Below are positions 17,588 through 40,605 of a DNA stretch of 54,284 nt, piece after piece; within the stretch, counting starts at the first letter, position 1; each line of letters begins with the position of its first letter. The stretch is from a candidate division WOR-3 bacterium. GTDB lineage: Bacteria; Hydrothermota; Tepidihabitantia; Tepidihabitantales; DTDR01. The notes below the pieces were generated by a model. It worked only from the letters and a program-made list of their open reading frames with translations, made no database searches and had not been told where the DNA came from. The stretch lies in the NCBI GenBank assembly GCA_039801725.1, contig JBDRVE010000006.1, positions 8,297 through 62,580 on the forward strand. Reading direction: 5' to 3'. Both the position numbers and the translations under genes were made by a program.

Positions 17588-17675
17588 ATTTTCTGTTTAA
17601 TAAAAAAACATCGTTATTAGCCATAAAATGAGATTGCTATAATATATTTACCCTTTCTGTGCTTTTTAACTATGT

Positions 17676-17691
17676 TTTAACACATTTACTT
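17676..17691 (+). promoter_or_regulatory. 16-bp box, distal copy of module A
   Basis: TTTAACACATTTACTT, ending 7 bp before the -35 of the module promoter. Identical to both copies at module B. Placement just upstream of -35 suits an activator site or UP-like element. Confidence 0.5.
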
Positions 17692-17698
17692 ATTTCCC

Positions 17699-17726
17699 TT
17701 GACATTTTAAAATTTTTGACTATATT
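17699..17726 (+). promoter_or_regulatory. internal promoter of module A
   Basis: TTGACA (17699-17704), a 16-bp spacer and TATATT (17721-17726). Both hexamers and the whole spacer are identical in module B. An ATG follows the -10 by 10 nt. Confidence 0.6.
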
Positions 17727-17736
17727 TGTAGTAGTT

Positions 17737-17778
17737 ATGTTTATAGAATGTTATAAATTCTTAATAGAAATATATTAA
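17737..17778 (+). other. conserved micro-ORF 1 of module A
   Basis: A 13-codon frame, MFIECYKFLIEIY, starts 10 nt after the -10 box, the same layout as leaderless genes in this window. Copy B encodes the same first 12 residues. It could be a leader peptide, or chance conservation inside a duplicated DNA segment. Confidence 0.3.
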
Positions 17779-17781
17779 AAA

Positions 17782-17817
17782 ATGGGAAAAAATTTGCGCA
17801 GAGGAAGAAAAACCTAA
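17782..17817 (+). other. conserved micro-ORF 2 of module A
   Basis: An 11-codon basic frame, MGKNLRRGRKT. Copy B has MGKNLHRRRKT, so both differences are amino-acid changing, which gives no support for selection on the peptide. Confidence 0.2.
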
Positions 17818-17853
17818 TAGAGGGGGTAATAGGGGGTAGGTCTATTCTATCGG

Positions 17854-17973
17854 AATATTTTTAACTCGATTATTATTGATAATAATACTTTTGTTAACGG
17901 TGATAACAATAACTTTATTAAGGCTAATAACTATATTTTTATTAATCACTTTAATAATAAGTTTACTTTTAAT
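17854..17973 (+). repeat. 24-bp tandem repeats of module A
   Basis: Units at 17854, 17878, 17902, 17926 and a weaker one at 17950, typified by GATAACAATAACTTTATT plus 6 nt. In one frame each unit gives an eight-residue Asn-rich repeat (NNNTFVNG type). Each unit can also fold into a weak TTAAT/ATTAA hairpin. Confidence 0.6.
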
Positions 17974-18124
17974 AATTTCGTAGGATCTAAATAACCACTG
18001 GATGTTAGACTATTTAGATGGAACTCCCTCATAGATAGATTATTTTAAGTATTCTCTAATATGAGCAAAAGTTCTTTTATTTTAGAACATTCTTATCTTA
18101 AATTTATTACTTCTGGTAACCATT

Positions 18125-18140
18125 CTTACCACATTTACTA
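18125..18140 (+). promoter_or_regulatory. 16-bp box, proximal copy before the 18202 gene
   Basis: CTTACCACATTTACTA matches the distal box at 13 of 16 positions and ends 11 bp before the -35 of the next promoter. Confidence 0.4.
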
Positions 18141-18151
18141 GTTAGTATTTA

Positions 18152-18180
18152 TTGACAAAAAGAAAATTTTAAATTAAAAT
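18152..18180 (+). promoter_or_regulatory. promoter for the small barrel gene
   Basis: TTGACA (18152-18157), a 17-bp spacer and TAAAAT (18175-18180). A leader of about 15 nt contains AGGAGG. Confidence 0.65.
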
Positions 18181-18201: not shown

Positions 18202-18669
18202 ATGAGAAAATTACTTATTTTAATGGTGAGTGTTTTAATTATTACTAATTTATCGGCATTAAACATAGGCGTCGGAATTGGCGTTGAAGATTTGGGCAAT
18301 GATGCTTATTTACGAATAAAAGGTGATGCTATTCTGCCGATTGTTTCTTTTTTAGATTATCGGCTTGGTTTCTTGATTTTTAATTTGAAAGAAAAAGATA
18401 TAACATTAGGCACAGGAATTGATAATGATATACTTGTTAAAATTCCCGTGCCTTTTCTTTTTCAAATTTATATTCCCTGTGGTTTTTCATTTTATTTTAA
18501 TGATGGGAAATCTTTTAATTTAAATGGTGGATTTGGCTTAGAAAAGGAACTTGGTTTCTTAAAGGGTTATTTAGAAGGTGGATTGAGATATTTTAAAACG
18601 GGCGAAGGTGAAGGTAAAACTCGCTTTTATCTTCAAGGAGGTATTAGAATACCTTTAGAAATATTATAA
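18202..18669 (+). CDS. small exported beta-barrel-like protein, 155 aa
   Basis: The N-terminus MRKLLILMVSVLIITNLSA is a clear signal peptide. The rest is made of short amphipathic strands rich in Gly and aromatics (FSFYFNDGKSFNLNGGFGLEKEL, GLRYFKTGEGEGKTRFYLQGGIRI), as expected of a small outer-membrane barrel. No family recognised. AGGAGG lies 6 nt before the ATG. It is preceded by regulatory module A and followed 18 nt later by the dehydratase/activase genes, possibly in one transcript. Confidence 0.65.
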   Translation: MRKLLILMVSVLIITNLSALNIGVGIGVEDLGNDAYLRIKGDAILPIVSFLDYRLGFLIFNLKEKDITLGTGIDNDILVKIPVPFLFQIYIPCGFSFYFNDGKSFNLNGGFGLEKELGFLKGYLEGGLRYFKTGEGEGKTRFYLQGGIRIPLEIL

Positions 18670-39118: not shown

Positions 39119-39976
39119 TTAAAAATAGAAAGTAAGGTTGAAGATGTGAGCGATTCCTAAGTTTTGATAAGGTAAAAATCCGTAAGAAAAAGCAACCGGC
39201 TCTTTTGTAAATTCTAATCCCAAAGAGAATCGGGTTAAAAATCCTTCTTTAAAACCAAGATAACCTAAACGAAAAATAATAAGATTGCTTATCATTAGTT
39301 CTGTTCCTAAATGGAAATCTAATCCTAAGTTAGAATAAGCAAAACCAGTAGAGATAGATAAACCATTATTTTTAGGCAGATTAATTAGTTCGGTTAAATC
39401 TGCGCTCCCTTCCAAAATAAATTCTGGTTGTTCTAATTTTTTAGTTTGGTAATAAGGTTTAAAGATAAATATTAAATTTTTTATTCCGTAGCCAATCCGA
39501 AAAATATTAATCTCACTCATACCTAAAAGATTAATACCTGTTCCCAAAGAATAAAGAGTATCGCAACCAGAATAAATAAGATTGGTTAGAATACCAATTT
39601 TTGAACTTCCTAATTTATAACTAAAAAAAGGACTTAAAGAAATATGAAAATATGAAAAATAACCGTACTCTTCACCAAATTCATCAGTTTTTTTTATCTC
39701 ACCACTGTTAAAATAATTAAGGAAAATTCCGTATTGATTTTTACCTTTATTTTCAGCAAAACCTAACCCACCAAAATGGGTGTTTACTAAATAAGATAGA
39801 TAACTGAAACTTACGGCTCGCTTTTTTATCCCCAAGGGATTACCAAAGATAAAATTAGTATAATAACTTGGTAAAGTCTTATTTCCAGTGATCAACTCAT
39901 AAGGAGATAAAGAGAGCTTTAATTCTTGATAACCAAAAAGGAAGGCAAAAATTAGGAAAGAAAATATTTTCCTCAT
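39119..39976 (-). CDS. outer-membrane beta-barrel-like protein at head of liv operon
   Basis: A 285-residue exported protein. The signal peptide MRKIFSFLIFAFLFG is followed by repeated amphipathic strands (GYFSYFHISLSPFFSYKLGSS, LIIFRLGYLGFKEGFLTRFSLG), and the last strand LGIAHIFNLTFYF ends in Phe. It resembles PorV/PorQ-type barrels, but family membership is not proven. It lies 13 nt before livH in the same operon and is preceded by module B, so it may be the outer-membrane entry for the Liv substrate. No Shine-Dalgarno. Confidence 0.65.
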   Translation of the reverse strand: MRKIFSFLIFAFLFGYQELKLSLSPYELITGNKTLPSYYTNFIFGNPLGIKKRAVSFSYLSYLVNTHFGGLGFAENKGKNQYGIFLNYFNSGEIKKTDEFGEEYGYFSYFHISLSPFFSYKLGSSKIGILTNLIYSGCDTLYSLGTGINLLGMSEINIFRIGYGIKNLIFIFKPYYQTKKLEQPEFILEGSADLTELINLPKNNGLSISTGFAYSNLGLDFHLGTELMISNLIIFRLGYLGFKEGFLTRFSLGLEFTKEPVAFSYGFLPYQNLGIAHIFNLTFYF

Positions 39977-39982
39977 TTTTAT

Positions 39983-40010
39983 ATAATAATAAAATAAATT
40001 GATTTGTCAA
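39983..40010 (-). promoter_or_regulatory. promoter for barrel-livHMGF operon, leaderless layout
   Basis: Minus strand: TTGACA (40010-40005), a 16-bp spacer and TATTAT (39988-39983), then 6 nt to the ATG at 39976. Confidence 0.6.
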
Positions 40011-40017
40011 ATAAAGA

Positions 40018-40033
40018 AAGTAAATGTGTTAAA
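40018..40033 (-). promoter_or_regulatory. 16-bp box, proximal copy before the barrel-liv operon
   Basis: On the minus strand TTTAACACATTTACTT, identical to the distal box at 40560-40575. It ends 7 bp before the -35 at 40010. Confidence 0.5.
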
Positions 40034-40302
40034 ATATAAAACTTCTGAGTAAATTCAAGAGAAATAAAAAAGAATTGCCTTCAAACAAGAGAATCTTTTA
40101 CTTATACTCAAATAAATATCTAAAATATCCTGAATAAAGCAACATTTTATTATGTTTGTTTATTATTCTCCTAACTATTCTCATCTTATAGCCTTATTGA
40201 TTATATTTTATTTTTCTATCAAAGGTTCCCTCTATTACATAGCCCAATCTCTATAAGTTATTTAAGTCTTACGAAGTTCTTAAACATAAACTTATGGTTA
40301 GA

Positions 40303-40398
40303 GCCGTTAATAAAAGTATTGTTATTCGCATTAATAAAGTTATTGTTATTACCATTAATAAAAATATTATTATTAACACTAATAGAGTTAAAAATATT
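40303..40398 (-). repeat. 24-bp tandem repeats of module B
   Basis: Four exact-length 24-bp units (boundaries 40303, 40327, 40351, 40375), three of them sharing a plus-strand ATTAATAAA-type or GTTAATAAA-type core. Better preserved than in copy A. In the minus-strand frame they encode NNNNFINA and NNNTFING-type octapeptides. Confidence 0.7.
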
Positions 40399-40473
40399 CC
40401 CGTATGATAGACCTACCCCCTATTACCCCCTCCATTAGGTTTTTCTTCTTCTGTGCAAATTTTTTCCCATTTT

Positions 40474-40512
40474 TTATATTTCTATTAAGAATTTATAACA
40501 TTCTATAAACAT
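40474..40512 (-). other. conserved micro-ORF 1 of module B
   Basis: Twelve codons, MFIECYKFLIEI, then TAA, starting 10 nt after the module -10. The first 12 residues are identical to those of copy A. Confidence 0.3.
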
Positions 40513-40522
40513 AACTAATACA

Positions 40523-40550
40523 AATATAGTCAAAAATTTTAAAATGTCAA
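40523..40550 (-). promoter_or_regulatory. internal promoter of module B
   Basis: Minus strand: TTGACA (40550-40545), a 16-bp spacer and TATATT (40528-40523), identical in every base to the module A promoter. Confidence 0.6.
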
Positions 40551-40559
40551 GGGAATTAA

Positions 40560-40575
40560 AAGTAAATGTGTTAAA
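40560..40575 (-). promoter_or_regulatory. 16-bp box, distal copy of module B
   Basis: TTTAACACATTTACTT on the minus strand, 9 bp upstream of the module -35. Confidence 0.5.
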
Positions 40576-40605
40576 TATTATTATTATGATATGAATAATT
40601 TAAAA

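Follow-up and report, generated by a model that had tools for sequence, protein, structure and literature searches.

Correia elements of Neisseria have inverted-repeat ends and are shorter than the repeat described here. They are short, dispersed intergenic sequences that carry sigma-70 promoters and are often found immediately upstream of genes, and the size range given for MITEs in the same source is 50–500 bp (PMC10969869). QMITE1 of Coxiella burnetii is described as a typical MITE, flanked by short direct repeats and present in ~50 copies; these 300–400-bp dispersed repeats contain sigma-70 promoters and some of them yield sRNAs (PMC5896051). BrickBuilt, present in ~19 intergenic copies in Porphyromonas gingivalis, consists of a leader, a tandem minisatellite of ~23–24 nt and a tail, and has promoter activity (PMC4596501).

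We analysed a stretch of 54,284 nucleotides (the window) from a candidate division WOR-3 bacterium, comparing it with the rest of its own genome and with related genomes that include the sister species G001 and G002. A sequence-only reading of the window had noted two shared segments of ~318 bp, and the match is real: copy A (17676–17994, plus strand) and copy B (40575–40258, minus strand) match over 408 nt with 82% identity (E 1e-100). We consider it likely that both belong to a species-specific, MITE-like dispersed repeat with non-autonomous short members, derived from a small decayed mobile cassette. The features of the two sites are as follows.

17590–18139, plus strand: inserted DNA of copy A, short form, 550 nt, missing from the orthologous fpg/18202 gap of G001
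17679–17690, plus strand: motif AACACATTTACT of copy A, upstream of the insert's own -35
17699–17726, plus strand: internal promoter TTGACA-16-TATATT of copy A, identical in copy B
17727–17832, plus strand: conserved leader of copy A, with 1–4% divergence among six short forms and without a conserved reading frame
17833–17994, plus strand: GGGGTAGG and 24-nt-period array (TTTATTAAY core) of copy A, with TAA at the end
18152–18180, plus strand: own promoter of gene 18202, TTGACA-17-TAAAAT, ancestral, in insert-free G001 too
18202–18669, plus strand: gene for a small exported protein of 155 aa without a Pfam family
40016–40600, minus strand: inserted DNA of copy B, short form, 585 nt, not present between PEPCK and 39976 in G001 or G002
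40561–40572, minus strand: left AACACATTTACT motif of copy B
40523–40550, minus strand: internal promoter TTGACA-16-TATATT of copy B
40258–40419, minus strand: GGGGTAGG and 24-nt-period array of copy B, with TAA at the end
40019–40030, minus strand: right AACACATTTACT motif of copy B, within the inserted DNA, 8 nt before the host -35
39983–40010, minus strand: own promoter of gene 39976, TTGACA-16-TATTAT, conserved in G001 and G002
39119–39976, minus strand: exported protein gene, 285 aa, no Pfam family

Seven leader-bearing copies share one order of parts: a TTGACA promoter, a leader of ~110 nt, a G-rich box (GAGGGGGTAATAxGGGGTAGG), a 24-nt-period array and a tail. Older copies have only the box, array and tail in common, and the promoter is conserved in six copies. 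The array is built around TTTATTAAY, and its lag-24 autocorrelation is 0.50 and 0.56 for the two window copies against means of 0.34 and 0.32. Much of what the sequence-only reading had said of the pair was borne out: the -35/-10 region is identical in both, the same TAA ends both segments, the genes at which they are aimed (18202 and 39976) both look exported, no transposase was seen near the copies, and neither a repeat search of the two inserts nor direct comparison of their ends found an inverted pair. Copy B contains a TTTAACACATTTACTTT motif near both the start and the end of its insert. It could also have duplicated TTTA at its target whereas copy A shows no duplication, in AT-rich, diverged host DNA that blurs the junctions.

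Comparison with the sister species indicated that both sites exist without the repeat. At site A, between fpg and the 18202 ortholog, it is absent from G001, the one sister compared; at site B, between PEPCK and the 39976 ortholog, it is absent from both sisters compared, G001 and G002. For gene 39976 the promoter is TTTGACAAATCAATTTATTTTATTATTATATAAAAATG; G001 has exactly this sequence and G002 an almost unchanged one, and the promoter of 18202 is present in G001 without the insert. Because these promoters lie past the insert and are common to insert-free sisters, the segments are insertions and not leaders of the downstream genes. As judged from these comparisons, copies A and B are insertions just upstream of pre-existing, ancestral promoters, and parsimony favors gain in the window's own genome over loss in both sisters. 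Measured against the empty sites, the inserts are 550 nt and 585 nt long, more than the repeated DNA originally delimited. In G002, PEPCK (C16:1077–2934) is split into three reading-frame pieces with stops, either frameshifts or assembly errors.

What had been described as a duplicated pair is a family of at least 17 copies (about 17–20) in a genome of 1.63 Mb on 61 contigs. Nine were found by DNA search, 16 when the open frame of copy L007 served as query in a translated search, and 17 at E<1e-15 by a sequence profile built from 13 copies. By DNA search the short forms L001–L006 are near-identical, with 87–89% identity to copy A, L007 has 74%, and several further copies match in their 3′ part only. 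Three contigs (C1, C33 and C30) terminate within the array and two (C60 and C54) within the helix-turn-helix (HTH) gene discussed below, an expected effect of near-identical repeats; since several copies lie at contig ends, the real copy number is probably higher than 17. The profile search detected no copy at E<1e-15 in the 12 relatives that it covered, two of which are congeners, and DNA and protein searches found none in 60 relatives, weak or promoter-only matches excepted. Zero matches were obtained in a phage collection (searched by DNA and by a 242-aa protein of the longer copies), in viral contigs and, with a 21-nt core pattern, in genome contigs.

Longer relatives connect the repeat to phage-like genes. 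An HTH_17 gene precedes the array at C21:29316 (Pfam PF12728, E 4e-9) and, truncated, at C2:71043, and a gene for a 242-aa protein follows the array at C2:71599. This protein, for which no significant match was found in PDB, Pfam or PHROGs, is putatively DNA-binding. In G001, a cassette of ~4 kb (C24:1506–5287, L214) is bounded by the HTH gene (63% identical) and the gene for the 242-aa protein (73%). It contains an M15_3 endolysin (PF08291, 1e-15; phrog_894, 1e-27), an excisionase-like HTH (phrog_2907, 1e-6) and a holin-like membrane protein of 58 aa; shortened versions likewise occur in G001. Two 126-aa paralogs are also encoded in L214:1506–5287, most of whose proteins are without a family match. 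Evaluated as a prophage or satellite, the family has genes common to the long copies and the M15-endolysin cassette, and no structural phage hallmark was recognised: capsid, terminase and integrase were all missing from the recognised proteins of the G001 cassette. The leader of copy B resembles the part of long copy L066 that runs from the HTH remnant to the array (z 6.8, above all 300 shuffles, -10 included). Of the long copies compared, L066 is the one with significant homology (z 6.8 and 3.6); L069 and L065 stay below 3. The tail of the short form looked by eye as if it might be related to the beginning of the 242-aa gene, a similarity that failed in shuffles, and homology between the array of the window's own genome (G000) and the ORF at the same position in G001 went undetected (hhalign E 0.18). 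The simplest reading is that the short form would be the promoter-array unit of the cassette minus its genes; against it count the restriction of the leader homology to one long copy and the undetected relation between array and G001 ORF.

The short forms are not evenly diverged. The six differ at 11 of the 147 promoter and leader columns, versus 44 of the 150 array columns (Fisher 1e-6), such that promoter and ~110-nt leader are at 1–4% divergence and the array at up to 20%. Against L007, in which the -10 is lost, it is the leader that is more diverged than the array. Identity blocks switch partner along the array of L001–L006 (window 17922–17996), pairing L002 with L004 and L005 with L006; within each pair the array ends are common and the tails are not. 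Such mosaic blocks suggest that dispersed copies have recombined or undergone gene conversion with one another. Recent homogenisation and selection both fit the pattern of the 5′ half. A leader so much better conserved than the array is not expected of a dead relic whose parts are all of one age, barring homogenisation by gene conversion, and this counts against a relic reading.

All seven leader-bearing copies point at a co-directional downstream gene. Most copies with a known downstream neighbor are co-directional and three face a convergent gene; seven copies lie in divergent gaps, and in co-directional gaps the orientation is co-directional in 4/4. Orientation alone is weak evidence, as in divergent gaps either orientation looks co-directional. 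Downstream of the six short forms are genes for three exported proteins, of which one is small and another is a Kelch protein; the other three encode a secretion-tail-domain protein, a sugar transferase and a TonB receptor whose gene has a cobalamin riboswitch. By a crude test, ~24% of the genes sampled downstream of long gaps look signal-bearing, and the envelope/exported bias downstream of the short forms is suggestive and post hoc. The riboswitch (Rfam RF00174, L034:6237–6440) lies between the repeat copy and the TonB receptor gene. Other copies, which are diverged, precede tRNA-Leu/tig, fusA, metK, trpS or a subtilase; still others face convergent genes. Such positions do not support the preference of the sequence-only reading for a leader.

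A motif, TTAACACATTTACT, precedes -35 boxes at 14 places in the window's genome, mostly by 8 nt (range 8–14). The same TTAACACATTTACT-TTGAC spacing occurs 0 times in a reversed control, 4 times in G002, twice in G006 (another family) and 0 times in G001. Within the window, (GGTAACCA..)TTAACACATTTACT is located at 17679, 18128, 40572(-) and 40030(-). Its candidate roles are those of an activator or UP-type site, and it could alternatively mark an end of the element. A second promoter type, AAAAAGTGGTAACCTTTTTGCCTTCTTATCCGTTATATATATA, which has GGTAACC in common with the TTAACACATTTACT motif, is found at L069:6245–6300, in L082 and on many contigs, with about 25–30 partial matches in the genome.

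Several explanations other than a decayed mobile cassette can be weighed against these data. That the segments are cis-acting long 5′ leaders of envelope genes, as the sequence-only reading proposed, agrees with their orientation to the downstream gene and their internal promoter, yet we find it extremely unlikely given that those genes' own promoters sit between insert and ATG and are shared by insert-free sisters, that the riboswitch in L034 separates element from gene, and that there is no conserved structure. A multi-copy family of small regulatory RNAs is a stronger contender. The conserved promoter would direct an RNA of ~110–300 nt with a 5′ part under purifying selection that acts in trans, possibly on envelope genes. 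The low divergence of promoter and leader relative to the array would be accounted for, all six downstream genes have exported, membrane or envelope-related products, compared with a signal-like share of ~24% among genes that follow long gaps in the genome sample, and MITE-derived sRNAs have a precedent in Coxiella (QMITE1, PMC5896051). We nevertheless regard it as unlikely. Single-strand folding gave no convincing stability (z-scores of -2.1 to +1.0), RNAalifold covariation terms of +0.1 and +1.43 do not support compensatory changes, no terminator-like site was found in the copy A or B regions, and among Rfam families cmscan detected three tRNAs only in the window, with no family matching the repeat. 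Furthermore, the repeat is absent from congeners, the leader has single-nucleotide indels, L007 is missing its -10, mosaic identity blocks suggest that recombination homogenised the copies, and the diverged copies do not share the post hoc envelope-gene pattern. Overall, the interpretation of the sequence-only reading is partly borne out: the six-copy promoter and the co-directional genes agree with it, and its preference for a leader over a transposon remnant is not supported, both window copies being insertions absent from sisters.

The array also raises the question of whether a protein is made. In nearly all copies one of its frames is uninterrupted and free of gaps, and its translation consists of 8-residue repeats (FINGNNNx, frame A); the frame is open from an ATG in two copies, and its amino-acid similarity in several older pairs is somewhat above the permutation null (zA about 2.4). 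This would be consistent with a small protein gene family in which the 8-residue repeat or a hydrophobic peptide (frame B) is translated from the array. However, the 24-nt periodicity by itself keeps array frames open, and the six recent copies lack a start codon and have in-frame stops upstream. Across L001–L007, differences are distributed over codon phases as 145/144/171 and the synonymous fraction is 0.249 vs 0.226, near the neutral expectation. Codon-wise purifying selection was not seen in L007 or the six short forms, and reading frames in the leader are interrupted by single-nucleotide indels. Frames A and B were rejected as genes, being neutral in recent copies, and we judge such a family very unlikely; the ancestral cassette itself may have held a gene in the array frame. 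Also quite improbable, in our estimation, is co-option, in which the fragment would have spread a constitutive non-coding RNA and a TTAACACATTTACT activator site (8–14 nt before the -35) to envelope genes, creating a new species-level regulon.

The reading we favor, a repeat derived from a mobile cassette, suggests the following sequence of events. The ancestral cassette would have carried an excisionase-like HTH_17 gene, the array region and the 242-aa putative DNA-binding protein, all kept in long copies, to which the sister ~4-kb version adds the holin-like membrane protein and M15 endolysin. The short form, probably descended from it, would retain the promoter-leader-array unit with no intact gene and would have inserted into intergenic DNA just upstream of existing promoters, perhaps spreading via functions of the autonomous cassette supplied in trans. 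Its own promoter is predicted to drive a non-coding transcript toward the neighbor gene without a dedicated terminator, several copies would also bring TTAACACATTTACT beside the neighbor's -35, and expression of that gene may be modestly altered. Against this reading count the lack of terminal inverted repeats and of a clear target-site duplication, and that no transposase was seen near the copies. With the short repeat seen alongside long relatives, a sister cassette and empty sites, its origin can be traced in a sparsely studied lineage. If the promoter-leader half is expressed, a phage-like element would have seeded promoters or small RNAs ahead of envelope genes; if not, this is an ordinary genome-specific repeat.

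How does the repeat compare with described systems? It is short, non-autonomous and multi-copy, with at least 17 copies and no intact gene, at 550 and 585 nt slightly over the MITE range (PMC10969869), and as terminal inverted repeats are missing we do not file it as a MITE. The AAY-rich array brought to mind the template of a diversity-generating retroelement, which its fixed 24-nt period does not suggest. The sister cassette resembles small prophages or phage satellites in its excisionase-like HTH (PHROG 2907) and M15 endolysin (PHROG 894) and differs from them in having no recognised capsid, terminase or integrase. Like QMITE1, the repeat is dispersed and has a sigma-70-type promoter; unlike it, there are no inverted ends or clear duplication, and copies number about 17–20. 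By description it matches Correia elements in being short, dispersed, promoter-carrying and in front of genes. The closest parallel is with BrickBuilt, likewise a one-species intergenic family with leader, minisatellite, tail and promoter (predicted here), although BrickBuilt has small inverted-repeat ends, which the present repeat lacks, and the present repeat has long relatives with phage-like genes. By analogy, then, the repeat would work like the promoter-carrying short dispersed repeats Correia, QMITE1 and especially BrickBuilt.
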